Shown: positions 1,773-28,348 of the stretch, piece by piece
How the letters are laid out: each line of letters opens with the position of its first letter
How positions within the stretch are numbered: position 1 is the first letter of the stretch
Origin: Kordia jejudonensis
GTDB taxonomy: Bacteria > Bacteroidota > Bacteroidia > Flavobacteriales > Flavobacteriaceae
Direction: 5' to 3'
NCBI RefSeq assembly: GCF_001005315.1
Contig: NZ_LBMG01000053.1
Location: forward strand, 1-36,454
DNA: 36,454 nucleotides
Made by a program: the position numbers and the translations under genes
The notes under the pieces: model-generated
The model's input: the letters and a program-made list of their open reading frames with translations, nothing else
Database searches by the model: none
What the model was told of the DNA's origin: nothing

Positions 1773-4700
1773 GTGCTACTATTTATGTTTTTGATACTTT
1801 TCTTTTCAATTCCTGCTGTGCAAACGGCCGTTGGACAAAAAGCGACAAATTGGTTAAATGATAGATACAAAACCAATATCAATATTGATCGTATTGGATT
1901 AAAGTGGAATGGCGATATTTCTTTGAAAGATATTTACATAGAAGACTATTTGCAAGATACGCTAATTCATGTGCAAACGCTAGAAGCTTCTATGTTGAGC
2001 TTCCAAAATGCAATCAATAGTAAACTGGAATTTGGTGGTGTAAAAGTAGATGGATTAACCTTAAACATCAACACTGAAAAAGATTCTGTTGATACTACGT
2101 TAGATGTTTTTATTGCCAAACTCGATTCCGAGCCTTCCGATGGAACGCCTTCAAACTTCTTGTTGACGACTTCAAAACTAACACTCTCAAACAGTAAATT
2201 TAGATACAAAGATCAAAATAATCAAGCGACGAATATTCTTGACTTTCAAGAACTTTCAGGAGTTGTAAATGACTTCAAAGTGCAAGGTCCAAATGTATAT
2301 GGAGATGTCACAGGATTAACCTTTTTGGATCATAGAGGATTGCGTGTAGATGAAATGAATTCCAAGTTTCAGTATACACTGACGCAAATGCGTTTTGAAG
2401 AATTATTGATCAAAACAAAAGGTTCTACATTGGATGGAATTGTTGTGTTTGATTACAATCGAGAAGATTTTGCTAACTTTTTAGACAAAGTAAAAGTCAC
2501 CGCAAGCTTTGTAGATTCTGAAATTGATTTTACCGAAGTCAACTATTTTTACGACGAATTTGGAAATAGAAAAGGGAAGTTTTCAGCAGATATTACGGGT
2601 GTTTTAAATGATTTTACGACAGAAAATTTTACGTTCAATTCGCCAGGCACGGTGATTAAGGGCGATGTGCGTTATCAAAACGTATTTACGTCAACACGAC
2701 CTTTTTATATGAAAGGCGACTTTGATCGCTTGTCTTCAAACTACTTTCAATTGCGTACGTTTTTACCAAATTTATTAGGTAGAACATTGCCATCATCTTT
2801 TCAAAAGTTTGGACAATTTAACATTCGTGGAATAACAGAAATTACAGAAAAAACAATTGACGCAAACTTAATTATTGACACAGAAATTGGAAGTTCTGTT
2901 TCGGATTTAAAACTCACTGAAATTGATGACATTGATAATGCTTCCTACAAAGGGAAAGTTACATTTGAAAATTTCGATTTGGGTATATTGGTTGATGATC
3001 CATTGATTGGAGAAGTAACACTGGATGCAGATGTTGACGGAAAAGGATTTACACAAGAAAAACTAAATACAGAAATTGTCGGACGTATTTTTAAATTACA
3101 ATACAATAATTACGAATACAAAAATCTGAACGTTTCAGGAGTTTTAAAGGATCAACTATTTGATGGAAACCTAGTTTCAAACGATCCAAATGCAAAGTTC
3201 AACTTTCAAGGATTGGCAGATTTATCAGGTGTTGAAAATGAATTTAGATTCAAAGCATCCATCGACGTATTGGATTTACACAAGCTAAATTTTATCAAGA
3301 GAGATCGAATTTCGGTACTAAAAGGAGATGTCGTGTTGGATGTGGTTGGAAACAATATTGACAATATGGCTGGTGATATTTTCTTCAAGAAAATTGCCTA
3401 CACCAATCAAAATGCAACCTATTCTTTTCAGAATTTTAAGGTAACTTCGGAGTTCGACAAAGACATTCGAAAAATAAGTATCAACTCACCAGATATCATT
3501 GAAGGAACGCTTACAGGACGTTTTCACTTTGATGAAGTTATTGATTTAGTGCAAAACTCTGTGGGTAGTATTTATACCAATTACAGACCTATTAAAGTAC
3601 TTCCGAATCAATACTTGACCTTCAATTTTAAAATTTACAATAAAATTGTAGATGTATTTCTACCAGATGTCGAATTGTCTAAAAACACATCATTACGTGG
3701 AAGTATCATTGGCGATGAAAACAAATTTAAACTCACCTTTAAAACACCACAAATTATTGTTGATGAAAATGTAGTGGACAATGTAGAATTGCAAATAGAC
3801 AACAAAAACCCAGTATTCAACACCTATTTGGAAGTTGCAGGAATTACCACAAAATGGTATGATGCGAGTGAATTTAACCTCATCAACAAAACCATCAACG
3901 ACACGCTGTTTTTTAGAACGGAATTCAAAGGCGGAAAAAATCTAAATGATATTTACAACCTAAGTTTTTATCACACAATTGATAGTACAAACAAGTCGGT
4001 TGTTGGACTCAAAAAATCGGATGTTTCATTTAGAGGAAACAAATGGTTTGTCAACAATGAAAATGATCGTAAAAATAGATTCATCTTTAACAAAACGCTC
4101 GATTCTATCTTCATTGAAAAAATTGTCATGAATCATGAAAATGAAGAAATTGACTTAGAAGGGCAATTATTTGGCAAAAACAATAAAAGCATCAAGCTAC
4201 AATTTAAAAATGTTGGCTTAGAAAAAATAACACCTTCTATTGATAGTATTCGCTTGGGCGGAACGGTCAATGGAAAGTTAGACATCAAACAAATAAATGG
4301 CGGATATGTGCCAAAATCCAAGCTTGATATCGCAAATTTATTAGTCAATGATAAACTGCTAGGCGATTTAAATATTGATATTGAAGGAGGCGAAAATCTT
4401 GAAAAATTTGATGTCAATGCAAAGCTAGTCAATGAAACCATTGAATCATTGGTTGCTGTTGGAAAAATTGATATTTCGGGTAGTATCAATAAAATTGATA
4501 TTGATGCAAAAATAGACAAGTTTGATATTTCTCCGTTTAGTGCATTAGGAGAAGACGTTATTACAGATATTCGCGGGTTAATTTCTGGAGAAGCCAACGT
4601 TATTGGAAACTTAAACAATCCGGCTATCAATGGAGAACTTAGTATTTTAGCGGGCGGATTGTACATTCCGTACCTCAATGTCGATTTGGATATGGCAAAC

Positions 4701-6269
4701 AGTTCCATTGTAAAACTCTATGATCAAACGTTCGAATTTGACAATGTTACCATCTTAGATACACAAGATTATACCAAAGGACAACTCAACGGAACCATTT
4801 CGCATACTTCATTTGACGATTGGCGTTTGGGACTCAACCTGAACACAGATCGTTTATTAGTACTAAATACCGACTTCGATGACGACGAAGAAACACTGTA
4901 TTACGGAACAGGATATATCAGTGGCGAAGCTTGGATAGAAGGTCCAACAGATGAACTCTTAATTCGTGTAGAAGGAACGACGGAAAAAGGAACTTCTCTA
5001 AAAATTCCGATCAGTGATGTTGCTTCCATTGGAGATGCTTCTTTCATAAAATTTGTAAACAAAGAAGAATTCTTTGATCCTGAAAAACAAGCCGAAAATG
5101 CCCTAAATGATTTCAAAGGATTGGAATTAAAATTTGATTTGGATGTAACGCCAGATGCAGAAATAGAAATTGTTGTAGACAAAAATACGGGAAGCACCAT
5201 CAAAGGAAGTGGAGTAGGAAGTTTGTTGATGGAAATTAATACCAATGGTAAATTTAACATGTGGGGAGATTTTATTACCTACAAAGGCGAATACAATTTT
5301 AAATATCGTGGAATCATCAATAAAAAATTTACGGTAAAGCCTGAAGGAACTATCAACTGGGAAGGCGATCCTTTCAAAGCACAATTAAATGTAGAAGCTG
5401 TATACAATTTGGAAGCCAATCCAGATGTACTGTTAGACAGTCCAACATTCAACAAAAAAATTCCAGTAGAAGTTGGCATTCGTCTCAGAGGAGATTTACT
5501 AAAACCAGATCCTGTATTCAATATCACATTCCCAACAACACGTGGCGTTGCACAATCAGAACTGACAGATTTCTTGTTAAACGATGATGACAAACGAAGA
5601 TTACAGGCACTTTCATTACTATCGCAAGGACGATTTGTAAACCAAGTCAACATCAATCAAAATGCAATCACAGGAAATCTTATCGAAACTGCTACGGGCA
5701 TCATTAACGATGCACTTACAGGCGAAGGAAATGGTAAACTAAATGTATCGCTAAATTACAGTCAGGCTGATCGTTCTAATCAGTTAAACTTTGAAACATC
5801 CGATCAGTTAGGATTTCGAGTTTCGAGTCAAATAAGTGATAAAGTTACGTTCAATGGACAATTAGGAGTTCCTGTTGGCGGAGTCACACAAACGGCAATT
5901 GTTGGAGATGCGGAAGTAGAAATTTCGTTAAACGAAGATCGATCGCTGACGGCTAAAATATTCAATCGCCAAAATCAAATTCAATACGTAGGGGAAATTC
6001 AAGGTTTCACACAGGGAATAGGTTTGTCATACCAAGTAGACTTTGACACTTTAAAAGAATTGGTAGATAAAGTTTTTAAGGGGAAAAAGAAAATGGCGGA
6101 AGAAAAGAAAAAACAAGAAGAAGCAGAAGCCAAAGCTGGTGGCGGATTTATTCAATTTGAAGATAAAAAGGATACAAAAAAAGAAACCAAAAAACCGACA
6201 ACTGCTAAAAAAGAAGAAAAAGAAGAAGAATCTGAAAAAACTGAAGCTAAAAAAGCAGGAGAAAAATAA
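1773..6269 (+). CDS. tamB: Translocation/assembly module TamB (DUF490/AsmA-like)
   Basis: A protein of about 1,498 residues with an N-terminal hydrophobic anchor followed by a very long beta-rich region. The segment around residues 1040-1400 matches the TamB C-terminal domain style, for example GSGVGSLLMEINTNGKFNMWG. TamB spans the periplasm and works with a BamA-like partner in moving lipids or outer-membrane proteins. The last 60 residues or so are a Lys/Glu-rich low-complexity tail. The tsaD-tamB divergent pair is, as far as I recall, common in Flavobacteriia. The start is odd: the only standard start codon before the conserved region is GTG at 1773, inside the hydrophobic segment. In-frame codons upstream, back to a TGA at 1719-1721, encode the basic stretch IKRVWKIIKRIVVAI expected in front of a membrane anchor but contain no ATG, GTG or TTG. 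The true N-terminus is therefore probably longer. Confidence 0.88.
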   Translation: MLLFMFLILFFSIPAVQTAVGQKATNWLNDRYKTNINIDRIGLKWNGDISLKDIYIEDYLQDTLIHVQTLEASMLSFQNAINSKLEFGGVKVDGLTLNINTEKDSVDTTLDVFIAKLDSEPSDGTPSNFLLTTSKLTLSNSKFRYKDQNNQATNILDFQELSGVVNDFKVQGPNVYGDVTGLTFLDHRGLRVDEMNSKFQYTLTQMRFEELLIKTKGSTLDGIVVFDYNREDFANFLDKVKVTASFVDSEIDFTEVNYFYDEFGNRKGKFSADITGVLNDFTTENFTFNSPGTVIKGDVRYQNVFTSTRPFYMKGDFDRLSSNYFQLRTFLPNLLGRTLPSSFQKFGQFNIRGITEITEKTIDANLIIDTEIGSSVSDLKLTEIDDIDNASYKGKVTFENFDLGILVDDPLIGEVTLDADVDGKGFTQEKLNTEIVGRIFKLQYNNYEYKNLNVSGVLKDQLFDGNLVSNDPNAKFNFQGLADLSGVENEFRFKASIDVLDLHKLNFIKRDRISVLKGDVVLDVVGNNIDNMAGDIFFKKIAYTNQNATYSFQNFKVTSEFDKDIRKISINSPDIIEGTLTGRFHFDEVIDLVQNSVGSIYTNYRPIKVLPNQYLTFNFKIYNKIVDVFLPDVELSKNTSLRGSIIGDENKFKLTFKTPQIIVDENVVDNVELQIDNKNPVFNTYLEVAGITTKWYDASEFNLINKTINDTLFFRTEFKGGKNLNDIYNLSFYHTIDSTNKSVVGLKKSDVSFRGNKWFVNNENDRKNRFIFNKTLDSIFIEKIVMNHENEEIDLEGQLFGKNNKSIKLQFKNVGLEKITPSIDSIRLGGTVNGKLDIKQINGGYVPKSKLDIANLLVNDKLLGDLNIDIEGGENLEKFDVNAKLVNETIESLVAVGKIDISGSINKIDIDAKIDKFDISPFSALGEDVITDIRGLISGEANVIGNLNNPAINGELSILAGGLYIPYLNVDLDMANSSIVKLYDQTFEFDNVTILDTQDYTKGQLNGTISHTSFDDWRLGLNLNTDRLLVLNTDFDDDEETLYYGTGYISGEAWIEGPTDELLIRVEGTTEKGTSLKIPISDVASIGDASFIKFVNKEEFFDPEKQAENALNDFKGLELKFDLDVTPDAEIEIVVDKNTGSTIKGSGVGSLLMEINTNGKFNMWGDFITYKGEYNFKYRGIINKKFTVKPEGTINWEGDPFKAQLNVEAVYNLEANPDVLLDSPTFNKKIPVEVGIRLRGDLLKPDPVFNITFPTTRGVAQSELTDFLLNDDDKRRLQALSLLSQGRFVNQVNINQNAITGNLIETATGIINDALTGEGNGKLNVSLNYSQADRSNQLNFETSDQLGFRVSSQISDKVTFNGQLGVPVGGVTQTAIVGDAEVEISLNEDRSLTAKIFNRQNQIQYVGEIQGFTQGIGLSYQVDFDTLKELVDKVFKGKKKMAEEKKKQEEAEAKAGGGFIQFEDKKDTKKETKKPTTAKKEEKEEESEKTEAKKAGEK

Positions 6270-6318
6270 TAGTATCTAAAATCAGTTGCATCTTCAAAAG
6301 CCTATATTCCTATTACTT

Positions 6319-6634
6319 ACTATTTAAATACGGTTGCATACTATTTCATTTCGGTTCAGGAATGGGCGTGACCCCTTTTGGAACCCTTTTGAAGCGGTTC
6401 TTAACCATTTTTATTAGGTTCTTTAGTGGGTACAACCCCTGCAAGAACCTATTATATTCGGTTGCGAACCGAATTTATCCCTTACAGAACCGCATCAAAC
6501 CTGTGTGGAACCGAAAAATATCCTTCATACAACCGCTATGTACCACTACACAACTCAAAATAACCCGTAATCAACGGTATTTAAGGTATACACTACCTTT
6601 TTTAGTGCACAAACGACCTTAATTGTAGCAATCA
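6319..6634. repeat. Degenerate 21-bp array with AACC/GGTT half-sites phased at about 10.5 bp
   Basis: About fifteen 21-base units. AACC or a one-base variant begins at 6382, 6403, 6434, 6446, 6467, 6488, 6498, 6509, 6531, 6541, 6552, 6562, 6573, 6594 and 6615. All intervals are close to multiples of 10.6 bases. The opposite-strand motif GGTT lies at 6332, 6353, 6396, 6417 and 6460, with spacings 21, 43, 21 and 43. GGTT precedes AACC by 7 bases at 6396/6403 and 6460/6467, giving a palindrome CGGTT-GCG-AACCG at 6459-6471. Adjacent units 6382-6402 and 6403-6423 agree at about 16 of 21 positions, so the bases between the motifs drift more than the motifs do. The array sits in the gap before the secreted-protein operon and fills most of 6270-6640. 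Confidence 0.65.
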
Positions 6635-6722
6635 TATATAGGTAAAAACTAGGTTGGTATAGTAAAACAATATTCACTTAATATTTTTTTGTTCCCTTGT
6701 TAGGTTCAACAAACAAGAATAT

Positions 6723-6740
6723 TCCCCTGTAAAAAGGGGA
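6723..6740. repeat. Short hairpin TCCCCT / AGGGGA
   Basis: A 6-bp GC-rich stem with a 6-base A-rich loop, flanked by ATT before and GGATTCC after. It could be another dispersed repeat or a weak structural element. No T-run follows, so it is not called a terminator. Confidence 0.3.
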
Positions 6741-6776
6741 GGATTCCACTTACAAAACGCATTTATTCTAAGTTTA

Positions 6777-6806
6777 TTTGTAGTGAAGTAACGTATCGTA
6801 CATTTC
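6777..6806 (+). promoter_or_regulatory. Candidate promoter of the secreted-protein operon
   Basis: TTTG at 6777-6780, an 18-base spacer, then TACATTTC at 6799-6806, which is 7 of 8 against the Bacteroidota -7 consensus TAnnTTTG. The predicted start near 6813 leaves a leader of about 46 bases before the ATG at 6859. The 21-bp array ends about 140 bases upstream, so it could act as an upstream regulatory region. Confidence 0.45.
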
Positions 6807-6858
6807 CCTTTCCCCTAAAACTGAATTGCTTTTAAAAATAACCCTTAAAAACAATTTT

Positions 6859-8763
6859 ATGAGAAATCATTTATTACCCCTTTTTAGACTCGCATTGGTG
6901 GTGTTGTTGTCTTTTATTTTTTCTAATTGTGAACAAGATGAAGTTAGTTCTGATACTGACGAAATCACAAAACAACATAATAGAGTACAGATAAATACTA
7001 ATAACGAAGTTTCAAAGTCTGCTATTGATTTTATCAAAACAAAAACAAACAATTCGTTTGCAGTAACACATTACAAAGGAAAAGTATTCCTTTCAGAAGC
7101 CACAAGCAACGCCAAAAATACAAATTTGGGAACTGTTGATACCAGCAAAGAAATCGTAGTGCTCAACGAAACCAATACTAAACACACCTTTAAAGTTATT
7201 GACAACGATAATGATAGTAATACCTATACCAATCTTATTGTGGTTGAAACGGAAACAACAACCTATGAATATTTTATAAAATACACTGTAAACGAAGGTG
7301 TTACGATACACGATGAAGAAGGAAATCTTGATTTTTCACAATTTCGTGGACGTATAGAAACTTTTAATAGTGAAGGCGATCTCATTGGCGATGTACTCAT
7401 AGAAGATGGAAGTATCAGTACACAGACAGGACAGTTTGCACCTTGTCCTGATGAACCTATAGACGATACAACAACCCCTAACGATCCGCCAAGTAATGAC
7501 GGTGCTACAAGTAGTTCTAGCAATAGCGCAGGAATTGATGGAAGCGATACAGGAAGTACAAGTTCGCCAATAGATAATACCGAAAATGGCGGTTGGTTTG
7601 CAAGCTCAGACAGTGATGATTGTGGTTTACAATGGAGTTATGCACAATGCGGTTGTGGCGGTACGGCAAACGGACATGCTCCAAGTGGACCAGATTGTTG
7701 TCAAGGGAGTCCACTAACCATAACAGATTGCAACGGAAACCTTGTAACACAAGGAAGAGACAGCAATACCAACACAATGTTTAAGCGTGATCCTACCGAT
7801 CCGTGTGATGATGGTGCTGTTGGCGTGATTCTTGATGAAACGATTATAAGATCAATTTTAAATTGTATTAACGGATTATCACTAAGTATGAATGATAACA
7901 CTACCATAGATCCAGAAATTGCACAACAAAACAATTTAACGGCAACTGATTGGATGGAAATTAGTAACTTTCTTGATGAGAATTATTGTAGTGAAGATGC
8001 ACAACAGGAAGTTATTGATAATTTAATTAATGAATATGATGATTATAAGATTTTAAATGAACTAGAAGGAAAAGCTCTTTGTGTATATAATAAGTTAAAG
8101 TCTACAAGTTCAGGTTTTAAAAATGCTATTAAAAAGTTTGATGGGGATTTTCCTGTCGCGCATTTGAAGTTAGAAAGTACAATTTTAGGTGGCACTGCAA
8201 AAGGGTTGACTGTACCTCCTGCAAATTGTACGTTAGAAATAAATTCTCCTGATTATGTTATAACAGTCCAAGTAAATAGTTCAAATAATCAATATGGGCA
8301 TCCTCAAAGACCAAATTTATTAATTGCCAAAACTATTATACATGAAGTTATACATGCTGAAATGTTTAGAAAATTATTATCACTAGCCAAGCAAGGGCAT
8401 TTAGATTTTTCAGGTCAATCAGCGGAACAACAGACAAACTATATGATTAGTATTAGAGGAAATTTTCCAGGTGTGTATGACTATATGAGAAGATATAACA
8501 ATTGGCAACATCAACAAATGGCAACACATTACAGAGAAACTATTGCTAGAATACTACAAGAGTTTAGTACTGGAAATAAAGTTCCTGATAATGAGCAACC
8601 ACTTCAATTATATATGGATTTATCATGGGAAGGACTAATTTACGAGAACGGAACTAATGCTATTCAAAGTTGGATGCAGTTGACTCAGGTTGAAAGAGAT
8701 AGGATAGAATCTGTAATTTCAAACTATATAACTAATAATATTAATGAAACATGTACAGAATGA
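6859..8763 (+). CDS. Putative lipoprotein with HExxH metalloprotease-like motif
   Basis: 634 residues, not matched by me to a named family. The start at 6859 gives a lipoprotein signal: basic MRNH, a hydrophobic stretch, then FSNC with the lipidated Cys around residue 21. An in-frame ATG at 6826 would add 11 residues and spoil the signal. The middle (about residues 190-290) is a Ser/Asp/Thr-rich linker followed by a Cys-rich patch containing CGCGG and CC pairs. Near the C-terminus, IIHEVIHAEMF places HExxH at residues 495-499, the zinc-binding helix of gluzincin-type peptidases. Glu560 in HYRETIAR is a reasonable candidate for the third ligand. It heads five closely spaced genes for exported proteins. 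Its stop overlaps the next start as ATGA, implying translational coupling. A zinc peptidase is likely but not proven. Confidence 0.8.
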   Translation: MRNHLLPLFRLALVVLLSFIFSNCEQDEVSSDTDEITKQHNRVQINTNNEVSKSAIDFIKTKTNNSFAVTHYKGKVFLSEATSNAKNTNLGTVDTSKEIVVLNETNTKHTFKVIDNDNDSNTYTNLIVVETETTTYEYFIKYTVNEGVTIHDEEGNLDFSQFRGRIETFNSEGDLIGDVLIEDGSISTQTGQFAPCPDEPIDDTTTPNDPPSNDGATSSSSNSAGIDGSDTGSTSSPIDNTENGGWFASSDSDDCGLQWSYAQCGCGGTANGHAPSGPDCCQGSPLTITDCNGNLVTQGRDSNTNTMFKRDPTDPCDDGAVGVILDETIIRSILNCINGLSLSMNDNTTIDPEIAQQNNLTATDWMEISNFLDENYCSEDAQQEVIDNLINEYDDYKILNELEGKALCVYNKLKSTSSGFKNAIKKFDGDFPVAHLKLESTILGGTAKGLTVPPANCTLEINSPDYVITVQVNSSNNQYGHPQRPNLLIAKTIIHEVIHAEMFRKLLSLAKQGHLDFSGQSAEQQTNYMISIRGNFPGVYDYMRRYNNWQHQQMATHYRETIARILQEFSTGNKVPDNEQPLQLYMDLSWEGLIYENGTNAIQSWMQLTQVERDRIESVISNYITNNINETCTE

Positions 8764-9188
8764 AAAATTTAACACTACTACTATTACTATCCACATTTTT
8801 CTGTTTTGCTCAAAAGCAAGAAAAAGAAACAGTTTATTTATTATTTGATAATATGAATGAAGATAAATGTAACGTAGAAGATGGTTCTGGTAATTCAGAA
8901 AAACTAAACAAATATAGAAAACTAAACGATACTAAAATCTCTTATCTTATTATATGCAACGAATATTTCGCTTATGACTATAAAAAAAGTAAGGTAGATA
9001 CATGTTCTATTAATATATTAGCTAATTTAAAGATTGTTGATTTAGCATATATTGAGAAAAAAAAATCTGAAAATGTCATGCGTTATAATCCTTTTAAAAA
9101 AATATATATAATCGAAAAAATTTCAGATACAAAAGTGATTAAATACGATGTAACTTGGATTGGTGACTGGAATATGATTAGAGATTAA
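8760..9188 (+). CDS. Small secreted protein, paralogue family member 1
   Basis: 142 residues from the ATG at 8760, which overlaps the upstream TGA. A signal peptide (MKNLTLLLLLSTFFCFA) is followed by a mature part of about 125 residues. No known family recognised. It shares a pattern with the next protein: YLLFDN near the mature N-terminus, DTC-hydrophobic-L-N-LK in the middle, and YIIEKISDTKVIKYDVTW at the end. An in-frame ATG at 8751 would add MYR; the later start gives the better signal peptide. Confidence 0.75.
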   Translation: MKNLTLLLLLSTFFCFAQKQEKETVYLLFDNMNEDKCNVEDGSGNSEKLNKYRKLNDTKISYLIICNEYFAYDYKKSKVDTCSINILANLKIVDLAYIEKKKSENVMRYNPFKKIYIIEKISDTKVIKYDVTWIGDWNMIRD

Positions 9189-9219
9189 AAAAATAAAATC
9201 TCAGTCAAACTTGTACACC

Positions 9220-9642
9220 ATGAAAAATCTTGTTTTACACCTTAGCCTATTTTTGATTTCACAAAATGTGTTGTCACAAACAAATGAAAAAAACACGTAT
9301 CTAATTTTCGATAACTTATCTAATCAGACTTACAGTTTTGAAATTGGTAATGGTAAAATTGGAACAGAAAAAATTTTCAGGAAAGAAAAGAAAAAAGAGG
9401 GAAATATTAAGTTTTACATTAAAAAAGAAATGTTTCTATCAAATAAAAAACAATCTGATACTTGTACAATAGATAATTTGAAAAATATTAAAGTATCAAA
9501 AATCGAAGATCTTAAAAAAGATGTCAATAAAATCAATCCATTATATCCTTATGAGGTTTTTCCTAATTTATACTTAGTTGAAAAAATTAATGATTCAACT
9601 ATTGTTAAATATAAAGTCAAATGGCAATATTATATTGAATAA
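9220..9642 (+). CDS. Small secreted protein, paralogue family member 2
   Basis: 140 residues from the ATG at 9220 (an earlier in-frame ATG at 9211 gives MYT before MKN). Signal peptide to about residue 19 (VLSQ). It aligns with the preceding product through YLIFDN, SDTCTIDNLKNIK and LYLVEKINDSTIVKYKVKW, so the two are probably an old tandem duplication. Function unknown. The gap to the preceding gene is about 30 bases and to the next start about 10, consistent with one operon. Confidence 0.75.
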   Translation: MKNLVLHLSLFLISQNVLSQTNEKNTYLIFDNLSNQTYSFEIGNGKIGTEKIFRKEKKKEGNIKFYIKKEMFLSNKKQSDTCTIDNLKNIKVSKIEDLKKDVNKINPLYPYEVFPNLYLVEKINDSTIVKYKVKWQYYIE

Positions 9643-9652
9643 ACTGCTAATC

Positions 9653-10639
9653 GTGAAAAACATATATATATTCATACTTTTATTTGGCTGTACTATACAA
9701 GCACAAACATTAGACGAACTAAAAAAGTTGGATACACTTTATTTTTATTTTTCAGAAAGTGAGTATCAAAAGAAAGATAGTTATAATGATATGAATGTAA
9801 ATGATAGTTTAATCATATATGCTTATTACAAAAATAACAAAGAGTTAATCAGGTTAAAATATTCAAAATTTGAGGATTTCGATGCTCAATTTGCAGATAT
9901 TTCCACATACAAAAAGTATCATAAAAAACGCTTTTTAAAGAAAAATAAGGAAAGACTTATAACTATTGATTTTCTTGACAATTTAAATTTAGAAGAACGT
10001 AATGAATTCTTAGATTCTAGGCGATGGAAAAAAAACTTTATCATTGATGAAGAAGAAATAAAAGGAAGGAAAATATTAATAAGAAGGGCTTTTGTAAATT
10101 CTCCCTTCAGCACTGATGACAATGAAGAAGTTTATCAATTGTATCCCAAAAGATATCTAAATCCCTTCTATGAAGAATCAGGTCTAAATGATGACTTTTT
10201 TACGTTTATCATTCCAAAGAAAAAATTAACTTCCGCTACAGAAGATTTATATATTTTATTTGAACCTTCTGAACTTGCTGTAAAAGAAGATACCTGTAAA
10301 CATTTTGTACAGCAGGGAAATACATATTCAGCTCCTAGAGTGCAAGAGCAATATACATTTAAGTTAAATATAAATAATCAAACTGTATTTTTTCAGTTGA
10401 CGCACAAGCGAAAGGAAAGCCAAAAACTAGAAAAGAAATACGATCTATTTTCCAAACAACATGAAACAGTTTCGTTTCAAGATTTAGACAGTTTTTCTGA
10501 AAAGCAACTAGAAGATTTGTTTGCACGAACACGTAACATTTACATCGTTGAAAATTTTACAGAAAAAGAATATGTAATACCGCTTTTGGTTACCCCAACT
10601 TCTTATTGGGTAGATTTTGTGAAAAACAATAACGATTGA
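9653..10639 (+). CDS. Secreted protein with two copies of the same domain family
   Basis: 328 residues from GTG at 9653, chosen because it starts a clean signal (MKNIYIFILLFGCTIQAQ) 10 bases after the upstream stop. Earlier in-frame starts, for example 9578, would run through the upstream gene. The signal may be type I (AQA) or a lipobox-like LLFGC. The two halves look alike. Residues 104-150 (ITIDFLDNLNLEERNEFLD, then NFIIDEEEI, then ILIRRAFV) match the pattern of the second half (VSFQDLDSFSEKQLEDLF, then NIYIVENFTE, then YVIPLLV). The second half (from about residue 197, DLYILFE) also resembles the two small proteins encoded upstream. I infer a duplicated domain. No function assigned. Confidence 0.72.
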   Translation: MKNIYIFILLFGCTIQAQTLDELKKLDTLYFYFSESEYQKKDSYNDMNVNDSLIIYAYYKNNKELIRLKYSKFEDFDAQFADISTYKKYHKKRFLKKNKERLITIDFLDNLNLEERNEFLDSRRWKKNFIIDEEEIKGRKILIRRAFVNSPFSTDDNEEVYQLYPKRYLNPFYEESGLNDDFFTFIIPKKKLTSATEDLYILFEPSELAVKEDTCKHFVQQGNTYSAPRVQEQYTFKLNINNQTVFFQLTHKRKESQKLEKKYDLFSKQHETVSFQDLDSFSEKQLEDLFARTRNIYIVENFTEKEYVIPLLVTPTSYWVDFVKNNND

Positions 10640-10644
10640 TTTTA

Positions 10645-11469
10645 ATGAAAAACCATTTTCTAATATTATTCCTTTTTACATGCTCAATTTCATTTGCTTG
10701 CAGTTGTAGTCCACCAAAATCTATACTAGAATTTTACAATGCTACGTATGTTTTTGAAGGAGAAATCGTGTCAAAAGTCTATGCAGAAGATGCACAAACG
10801 TATACTGTACGGTTTGCAATTACAGAACATTACAAAAATGGAGAACAACCAAAAGAACTTAGTTTTGTGCTAAAATCAGAAGAATTCTATACTAACGAGT
10901 CAACATCTTGTGATTGGAGTGCAAATAAAGGAGAAAAATGGTTGGTTTATGCACACTTAAACGATATCGATTTATTAAGTTTTGACGGAATGTGCTCAAA
11001 CTCCAAACGAATTGATTACCATGGAATAAGCGATGATGAACAGAAAGTCTTGGATAATGGTAATAGTTTTGTTATCGGAAATTATGCATATCAGAATGAA
11101 TCAGGTTTCAACTATACTACTCCTGTAACCAATATTGACTCAATACTAAAAGGTGCAAAAAAGGGAAACTATAAACACACATTTACAAGTATAAAAATTC
11201 ATATTGACAAAAAAGGAAATTTGCAAAATGTAGCTAGTGAAAATCATTATCCTATTGAATATGATTCAAATTTTGGTCTTGCTAAAGGATTCATAAATAC
11301 AGTACATGAGCCATCAAGTGATTTTGAAAAAGAAGCCATCCGAATAGCTAAGAATATAAAGAAGTGGGAAATAAAATATCATAAGAAAACTAAGATTCCC
11401 GTTTCACAGATTTATAATATTATTTTCACATATGACAAAAAAACAAATACTTGGAGTTATGAGTTGTAA
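10645..11469 (+). CDS. TIMP/NTR-like CxC protein with TonB-C-like tail
   Basis: 274 residues from ATG 10645, 5 bases after the upstream stop. An upstream in-frame TTG at 10636 is unlikely. A signal peptide ends SFA, so the predicted mature protein begins Cys-Ser-Cys-Ser-Pro-Pro. This is the layout of TIMP-like netrin (NTR) domains, in which an N-terminal CxC can coordinate the zinc of a target metalloprotease. About residues 20-140 have the OB-fold style (VFEGEIVS, then TVRFAITEHYKNG, a conserved Cys in TSCDW, and WLVYAH). The C-terminal 100 residues are different: DFEKEAIRIAKNIKKWEI followed by IIFTYD resembles a TonB C-terminal domain. It is the last gene of the operon before a strong terminator. 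The TIMP resemblance is good; inhibition of a protease is inference. Confidence 0.7.
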   Translation: MKNHFLILFLFTCSISFACSCSPPKSILEFYNATYVFEGEIVSKVYAEDAQTYTVRFAITEHYKNGEQPKELSFVLKSEEFYTNESTSCDWSANKGEKWLVYAHLNDIDLLSFDGMCSNSKRIDYHGISDDEQKVLDNGNSFVIGNYAYQNESGFNYTTPVTNIDSILKGAKKGNYKHTFTSIKIHIDKKGNLQNVASENHYPIEYDSNFGLAKGFINTVHEPSSDFEKEAIRIAKNIKKWEIKYHKKTKIPVSQIYNIIFTYDKKTNTWSYEL

Positions 11470-11527
11470 AACAACATAATTTACCCAAGAAAACCCTTAT
11501 ATCGTAAAACGAAGTTATTCTACTATA

Positions 11528-11564
11528 AAAGTCTCAATTGTAATGATTGAGACTTTCTTTTTTT
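11528..11564 (+). terminator. Rho-independent terminator of the secreted-protein operon
   Basis: Perfect 11-bp stem, AAAGTCTCAAT at 11528-11538 and ATTGAGACTTT at 11546-11556, loop of 7, then C and seven T. It lies 59 bases after the last stop codon of the operon. Confidence 0.88.
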
Positions 11565-11577
11565 AAAAGTATCTTTG
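11547..11577 (+). promoter_or_regulatory. Candidate promoter for pfkA
   Basis: TTG at 11547-11549, a 20-base spacer, and TATCTTTG at 11570-11577, a perfect match to TAnnTTTG. The -33 part sits in the descending arm of the preceding terminator. A start near 11584 would leave an unusually long leader of about 265 bases in front of pfkA. Confidence 0.5.
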
Positions 11578-11583
11578 TTAGTC

Positions 11584-11850
11584 TGGGACTGTAAAAATAT
11601 AGGAACCTATTTTCTATATAAATTGTGAAAATATTTGATACTAAAAACAACCCAATCTCTACTTCCAATAACCACATCCACACTTAAGAAAACATTACTA
11701 AAAGTGAAAAAATAGGATGCTAAAACGTTAAAATTCTGAGAACTTATTAACGAAAACGTTTGAAATTTTCGAACACTACAAAATTAGTCTAAAGCGTACT
11801 ATAAAATCAAAATAAGTTTACTAGCTTTACTATTCAAAATATAAAATTGC
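11584..11850 (+). other. Long AT-rich leader before pfkA
   Basis: No coding sequence seen. It contains a near-palindrome ATAGGAACCTAT at 11599-11610, and two AACC motifs exactly 21 bases apart (11649, 11670) with similar flanks, reminiscent of the 6319-6634 array. It also has a direct repeat AAAACGTT and a CGAAAA/TTTTCG inverted repeat near 11753-11780. These may be operators or leader structure; none is proven. Confidence 0.3.
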
Positions 11851-13864
<2,014 letters not shown>

Positions 13865-15202: not shown

Positions 15203-15271
15203 CCAAAAACCCAAAACCCAACCCCAAAAATCCAATACCAAAGACCCAACACCAAAAGACCCAAAACCCAA
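15203..15271 (-). repeat. C/A-rich tract (G-rich on minus strand) downstream of guaC
   Basis: CCC or CCCC triplets at 15210-15212, 15217-15219, 15222-15225, 15245-15247, 15260-15262 and 15267-15269 in an A-rich background, directly after the guaC stop codon. The first three and the last two are tightly spaced, but a 19-base gap breaks a four-tract quadruplex pattern. Same style and same position relative to the gene as the tracts behind tsaD and panB. Confidence 0.5.
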
Positions 15272-28217: not shown

Positions 28218-28348
28218 TTTTAGAATGCTTCGCTTTTGGGTCGCTTTGCTTTTGGGTCACTTTGCTTTTTGGTCGTTTCGCTGGAGTTGTTAGCAACTGA
28301 ACTGTCATTCCTGTGAAGGTATCGGGAATAATTTTTGGATAGCTTCGC
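28208..28348. repeat. Duplicated gene end flanking 16-bp tandem repeats
   Basis: TCGGGAATAATTTT followed by a GCTTCGC block occurs at 28208-28233, where it contains the end and stop of the NTF2-like gene, and again at 28322-28348 with about 24 of 27 positions equal. Between the copies lie three 16-base tandem units (28228-28243, 28244-28259, 28260-28275; pattern CTTTGCTTTTGGGTCR) and a decayed fourth, then a small AGTTG/CAACT hairpin. The rest of the 311-base gap to sdaA (28349-28528) shows no gene. Confidence 0.55.
28304..28329. repeat. Degenerate GTCATTCC repeat
   Basis: GTCATTCCTGTGAAGG is the left half of the element seen at 138-160. The right arm is altered to TATCGGGAAT, keeping only ATTCC/GGAAT pairing. 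It overlaps the second copy of the duplicated gene end at 28322. Confidence 0.4.

Follow-up and report, generated by a model that had tools for sequence, protein, structure and literature searches.

Dispersed two-turn DNA arrays in Kordia and their linkage to an uncharacterized protein gene in Bacteroidia

Plasmid iterons, such as those of P1 incA downstream of repA, are tandem sites spaced about two helical turns apart that bind a Rep initiator. The passages of PMC4596501 on BrickBuilt, a MITE/minisatellite of Porphyromonas gingivalis, give it 23-nt units, 19 copies in one genome, a leader and a tail with small inverted-repeat ends, and no BLASTn match outside P. gingivalis. BldC, in the relevant passages of PMC5859096, is a small protein that multimerizes head to tail on phased 9-bp direct repeats in promoters, and H-NS, an abundant general protein with an AT-rich motif, nucleates at spatially arranged sites (PMC5418058).

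The array described here lies in a 36,454-nucleotide stretch of Kordia jejudonensis DNA (contig NZ_LBMG01000053.1), which at its full length we call the window (table 1). The nearest described element that we found, judged from the passages of PMC4596501, is BrickBuilt, also a tandem array between genes and also from the Bacteroidota. We posit, with a probability of roughly 0.5, that the array is a double-stranded DNA platform of phased predicted sites to which a protein would bind cooperatively and sequence-specifically along one face of the helix.

The array in the window and its copies within Kordia

An earlier note on this DNA had reported about 15 degenerate 21-base units that carry AACC or GGTT in phase with the helix. 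The array holds 15 such words against 5.05 expected, a count that none of 1,000 dinucleotide shuffles reaches, and its phasing score, best at 10.45 bp (R ~0.70; R 0.60 at 10.6 bp), is likewise equaled by 0 of 1,000 shuffles. Autocorrelation, which the note had proposed for the AACC/GGTT words, peaks at lags of 64, 21, 85, 43, 106, 42, 75, and 32 when computed base by base, with a multi-lag score above that of all 1,000 shuffles. At a threshold of seven words in 150 bp, this is the sole AACC/GGTT cluster in the window. Simple arrays of AAAACCC-like 7-bp units, distinct from the 21-bp lattice, occur at 497–581 and 15206–15271, and a 16-bp tandem repeat, GCTTCGCTTTTGGGTC, is present in 3.5 copies between two open reading frames (ORFs) at 28227–28282.

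The helix phasing described in the note thus stands, but the note overlooked a dyad symmetry: from a center at ~6433, GGTT extends mainly to the left and AACC mainly to the right in 21-bp steps. Relative to this center, GGTT is found at offsets of −14.5, −35.5, −78.5, and −99.5, and additionally at +28.5, and AACC at +14.5, +35.5, +56.5, +77.5, and +99.5, with further AACC words at −49.5, −28.5, +2.5, +66.5, and +130.5. The central sequence, TTTAGTGGGTACAACCCCTGCAA, resembles the centers of several other array copies, which are TTAGGGGGTACACCCC-like. The palindrome CGGTTGCGAACCG is present where the note had placed it, and its GGTT-N3-AACC pattern is found in 11 of the 13 array copies compared. 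A predicted ORF of 86 aa inside the array (6362–6622) shows the 21-bp rhythm.

Table 1. Features of the array locus, in positions of the window
Feature	Position	Strand	Basis
tamB (TamB domain, PF04357), left neighbor	1773..6269	+	Pfam
Segment between tamB and pfkA absent from 10/10 congeners: array plus lipoprotein operon	6270..11706 (edges approximate)		Congener comparison
Helically phased, dyad-symmetric array of ~14 degenerate 21-bp units (GGTT/AACC lattice)	6319..6634		Word count, shuffles, dyad map
Dyad center TTTAGTGGGTACAACCCCTGCAA, between GGTT 6417–6420 and AACC 6446–6449	6422..6444		Sequence, dyad map
CGGTTGCGAACCG, full palindromic GGTT-N3-AACC lattice site, 13 bp	6459..6471		Sequence
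5' region of lipoprotein gene; 89% identity with the 5' region of a paralog on contig C184	6700..6860	+	Alignment
Secreted lipoprotein gene, putative signal peptide with terminal SNC (judged by eye)	6859..8763	+	ORF map
Four more same-direction ORFs (145, 143, 353, and 277 aa), no Pfam match	8751..11469	+	ORF map, Pfam
pfkA (phosphofructokinase, PF00365), right neighbor of insertion	11851..12837	+	Pfam

The window array belongs to a dispersed family. Similar arrays are present in the same genome on contigs C143, C19, and C213, and in the aligned parts they are 70–80% identical either among themselves or with the window copy. A sequence-only model of the array (R1) matches 10 of the 11 Kordia genomes when E values up to 0.1 are allowed, G001 being the genome without a match at that limit. 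The match in G005, which lies inside gapA, and that in G009 (E 0.086) were not counted as arrays, and by our reading of model matches and loci, arrays are real in 8 of the 11 genomes. Among 397 genomes of the bacterial family, 17 match R1 at E up to 1e-3, mostly weakly. The array set excludes gapA-coding rows (L179, L215), weak matches without a motif cluster (L205, L206, L216), and weak matches in other genera (L212–L214); L192, where the word scan shows no cluster, was retained by its model score of 3e-8.

The dyad polarity recurs in these copies. Over 27 Kordia arrays, a count that includes orthologous pairs and near-twins and that, like all our polarity figures, concerns Kordia only, GGTT accounts for 139 of the 191 motifs that lie left of the dyad versus 44 of the 186 to its right. 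Adjacent same-strand motifs in 22 copies are spaced by 21 bp 115 times and by 22 bp 14 times, and lattice positions are common to 13 copies, 12 of which have a raw lattice score of at least 5. The pooled motif distances of the 27 arrays (930 pairs) fit best at 10.62 bp, which is no independent measure of helical pitch, since an extra base at the dyad center (29 rather than 28 from GGTT to AACC) contributes to it.

The sites themselves are conserved. In three orthologous array pairs of G002 and G010, which hold their positions between the two genomes, differences counted in both directions affect 6 of 284 motif sites versus 148 of 1,214 sites elsewhere (Fisher p 9e-5 after halving the counts). 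In these aligned copies from related genomes, a comparison that the note had suggested, motifs are kept while the bases between them drift, as it had described for the window copy.

A new general association with the gene of a ~165-residue protein

In related bacteria, the array family usually sits directly after the gene of an uncharacterized protein of ~165 amino acids. A search of 395 Bacteroidia genomes for this gene returned 57 matches in 32 genomes, and we examined 50 loci from 30 genomes, which are not independent of one another. In the 800 bases downstream of the gene, 44 of the 50 loci have a best period of 21 (39 loci) or 22 (5 loci) at z >5, a threshold fixed after earlier runs on these loci. 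No other period passed it downstream; upstream, three segments passed with periods of 27, 33, and 35. A downstream array is absent at six loci (L321, L322, L334, L341, L343, and L364), and a 21-bp array lies upstream of the gene at two of the 50 (L321 and L343). As controls, we used the 3' regions of lipA, mutS2, and tamB (29/33 loci tested), for which those without a known array are at z ≤4.6 in 24 of 24 cases, though one of these, L237, had a best period of 21 (z21 7.1); the known array L228 scored only 3.2.

Within Kordia, all eight tested loci with DNA past the gene have a best period of 21 there (z 3.0 to 14.2). The gene is found in seven of the eight array-bearing genomes of the genus (cut by contig ends in G002), G007 having arrays and no such gene found, and an intact close homolog in none of the three array-free genomes (Fisher p 0.024 for 11 genomes in classes drawn post hoc). 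The distant homolog in G009 (L090) has no 21-bp array.

The same pairing was reached from the motif side. A scan by motif pattern alone gave 79 matches, against ~0.5 expected by a uniform-base estimate, many of which are 7-bp arrays (in other phyla too) or coding repeats. We chose and read 16 of the 79 and mapped genes for 13, and two of the arrays, in Flavobacterium hydrocarbonoxydans (L305) and Phocaeicola abscessus (L317), are preceded by a homolog of the 165-residue protein. The linkage of array and gene is a new general association. In one genome (G699, L320/L349), two of these genes lie in tandem with apparently one array after the second.

A period of 21 is a multiple of 3 and would fit a coding heptad repeat of seven residues per 21 bp; one of the pattern matches read, L251, is in fact a coding coiled coil. 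This explanation is nonetheless close to negligible: 22-bp arrays exist, at 5 of the 44 positive loci, where the units cannot be codon driven, and 22-bp steps occur inside Kordia copies.

The units mostly differ from locus to locus, even between paralogs of one genome, while the two-turn period stays constant. Close orthologs can share units, as at L324 and L327 (proteins 86% identical, unit similarity 0.91) and L325 and L326 (63%, 0.68), yet L328 and L351, whose 165-residue proteins are 78% identical, have different units (similarity 0.43). Coevolution of unit and protein was rejected as weak, with r of 0.23 between unit similarity, a raw measure, and protein identity over 820 pairs. The unit is palindromic at z >2 against a column-permuted null in 26 of 41 arrays and falls below that in 15; in the gene-linked array of the window's own genome (L318), the unit is not palindromic (z −0.5).

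A neutral minisatellite, spread by slippage or gene conversion and with 21 bp as merely the usual length, would account for the difference of units between loci and for the near-identical adjacent units of some arrays (L339 and L337). It would leave unexplained why the period is 21 or 22 at all 44 positive loci despite differing units, why motif sites are constrained, and why the Kordia copies are degenerate yet phased, and we consider it quite improbable.

A search for solo arrays outside the genus, covering G610 and G484, found one in G610 and none in G484. This second G610 array has its unit in common with the gene-linked one, and no gene like that of the 165-residue protein is evident in the surrounding ORF list. 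A hairpin sequence from the 3' end of the G610 array (L337) recurs in inverted pairs, mostly 115–145 bp apart, at ~10 places in that genome (L337, L373–L378) and may be likened to a MITE or REP element.

Small proteins, variable neighbors, and alternative readings

Searches of Pfam, NCBIfam, and PHROGs gave no convincing match for the 165-residue family, only a few weak ones for one to three members (best E 8.5e-4). An AlphaFold2 (AF2) model of the protein (pLDDT 88) is all helical, includes one helix of 55 residues, and has no significant PDB match. Most of these proteins are acidic (median pI 5.2; 3 of 50 above 8), which makes this protein more likely a partner than the binder of the array. 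A 90-residue protein of Kordia is basic (pI 9.6), with a four-helix model (pLDDT 91) whose fold matches include many POU or other helix–turn–helix (HTH) DNA-binding domains, none of them significant. Its family is present in all 11 genomes of the genus, array-free ones included, and an array of the 21-bp family adjoins 5 of 30 fetched gene copies, so it is no specific partner of the array. Past the 165-residue gene, one gene family of ~120 codons recurs at 8 of the 50 loci and another of ~81–95 codons at 4; the former appears XRE-like by our own reading of the sequences. No Pfam HTH domain was detected in the small array-linked proteins tested, including two of the ~120-residue family.

Arrays were placed relative to their neighbors from ORF maps for 24 nonorthologous Kordia copies with both neighbors, leaving out orthologous copies (L196, L198, and L207) and those that lack a neighbor (C143, C19, C213, L177, and L181). 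Seventeen of them lie between co-directional genes, six between convergent genes, and one between divergent genes (binomial p 0.009 if 25% is assumed). This avoidance of divergent regions would be expected if the dyad were transcribed and formed a long hairpin with a role at transcript 3' ends as terminator, stabilizer, or protein sponge, and three copies do fold better than their shuffles (z −4.73, −5.48, and −4.14). Complementarity across the dyad, however, is 0.398 within a copy versus 0.409 between copies, a value that 1,385 of 2,000 shuffles reach (20 centered copies); 15 of 41 homologous arrays have no palindromic unit at z >2, and the window has no Rfam match at the gathering score. The lack of covariation across the dyad despite good folds argues that the dyad reflects shared DNA sites and not an RNA stem, and we hold an RNA element to be improbable.

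The neighbors of Kordia arrays include LRR-Roc-TIR, NACHT, NB-ARC-TPR, and HNH-TPR proteins, MutS2, and secreted lipoproteins; those at 10 of the 24 copies are immune-like by domain or similarity (raw count). A recurrent order consists of a divergent TPR-AraC regulator gene (AraC domain checked in one), the 165-residue gene, the 90-residue gene, the array, and a lipoprotein gene. At three loci (L184, L191, and L197, in G003, G006, and G010), an LRR-Roc-TIR gene neighbors lipA; its orientation varies, and an array lies between the two. Neither array nor Roco-like gene was seen at the lipA locus of G000, G002, and G007; at that of G004, a Roco-like gene occurs with no array, and the G001 locus shows similarity to the start of that gene.

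In the window, the array is followed by a lipoprotein operon. The frame of pfkA starts 183–515 bases past tamB in all 10 congeners, so ~5.4 kb comprising array and operon are extra here. The lipoprotein ORF, taken from 6826, has no match in Pfam or NCBIfam. The 5' regions of this gene and its paralog (window 6700–6860 and L060 5210–5369; 160 bp) share the identity given in table 1, and their proteins match weakly (39% over the first 146 residues), a pattern that looks as if ends had been exchanged between variable surface genes. The earlier note had placed the array upstream of a secreted-protein operon, which is correct for this locus but is not supported as a specific link: the paralog has no AACC/GGTT cluster nearby (within the first 20 kb of contig C184), and other array copies adjoin other genes. 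A promoter operator for the lipoprotein operon was rejected, as the association is not general.

The main rival to protein binding along one face is that the array forms the edge of mobile gene cassettes (carrying the 165-residue gene, Roco-TIR, NACHT, or lipoprotein genes) and serves as a boundary used in recombination, where the phased sites would assemble a recombinase or accessory proteins. The window insertion, the joint occurrence or joint absence of Roco-TIR gene and array at lipA in six of the genomes just described, and the variable nature of the neighboring genes are all in keeping with this. Against it, neither a recombinase nor a relaxase is found among the neighbors run through Pfam, the two edges of the 5.4-kb insertion share no repeat of at least 14 nt, and the arrays are unmoved between G002 and G010 at three loci. 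The lipA loci of G004 and G001 also count against it, as does the result that the Kordia 165-residue protein, as a single query, found no relative in phage, plasmid, and viral-contig collections. We regard this explanation as unlikely.

A possible binding platform and its nearest described counterparts

We favor the binding of protein to phased DNA sites: the period is two turns, sites are constrained while spacers drift, and palindromic units are frequent, all of which suggests proteins placed side by side on one helix face. Left and right of the dyad, each unit of two turns would be bound by a sequence-specific protein, whose subunits, aligned on one face, could then polymerize, wrap, or bridge the DNA. 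The earlier note had likewise favored same-face sites and cooperative binding or wrapping over coding sequence or a recent tandem repeat. At the DNA level, its same-face sites are borne out by conserved sites, drifting spacers, 22-bp units, and the lack of hairpin covariation; we infer the binding itself, as we do the identity of the binder, its polymerization, and a regulatory purpose.

The best candidate for the binder, though a weakly supported one that draws on structural models, may be a small protein, basic and HTH-like, whose gene adjoins some arrays (the 90-residue protein in Kordia and other small proteins elsewhere), with the 165-residue protein as a putative partner or effector. The window copy is a solo array, the usual form of the family being the gene of the ~165-residue all-helical protein followed by the array. 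Most likely, the platform would mark or control the adjacent variable gene, such as those of surface lipoproteins and NLR-like immune proteins.

A bolder and rather doubtful extension is a Bacteroidia-wide two-part system, composed of the ~165-residue gene and the array that follows it, with a constant two-turn period and a locus-specific unit. Because the unit changes between loci while the period is kept, each locus would carry its own DNA address, and solo arrays with the same address beside surface lipoprotein or NLR-like immune genes would be targets in trans.

Repeat arrays are usually recognized by their sequence; here the sequence varies, and the two-turn spacing and the position after one gene family persist. 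Constant spacing with changing sequence is what would be expected of a nucleoprotein structure of changeable specificity. If this is correct, a protein family undescribed in the family libraries used would gain a role, and the way in which Bacteroidia mark variable surface and immune-like genes would become open to testing.

The earlier note knew of no named element with this layout, which agrees with our searches of the open-access literature: in papers represented mostly by their titles and the starts of their abstracts, we saw no gene family described with arrays of this kind, and the passages of a Kordia comparative-genome paper (PMC7477175) mention no intergenic repeats. A CRISPR array was rejected given that the units are contiguous and degenerate, not identical repeats with unique spacers, and that no cas domain occurs among the neighbors run through Pfam.

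The arrays do not show the defining features of any known family tested. Iterons resemble the window and other Kordia arrays in their spacing of about two turns beside a gene, but the linked 165-residue family has no Rep match, its all-helical model has no PDB match, and the array copies are dispersed. BrickBuilt differs in its 23-nt units, compared with 21 or 22 bp here, and may also differ in its flanks, and the passages of its description name no linked gene family such as that of the 165-residue protein (PMC4596501). BldC would work in a similar manner, as a small protein on phased repeats (the binding here being predicted); its 9-bp repeats are those of promoters and, in the passages of PMC5859096, form no dyad array. 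H-NS would also be comparable in action, with sites that seed a cooperative nucleoprotein structure (PMC5418058), although its motif is AT-rich and the protein itself is abundant and general.
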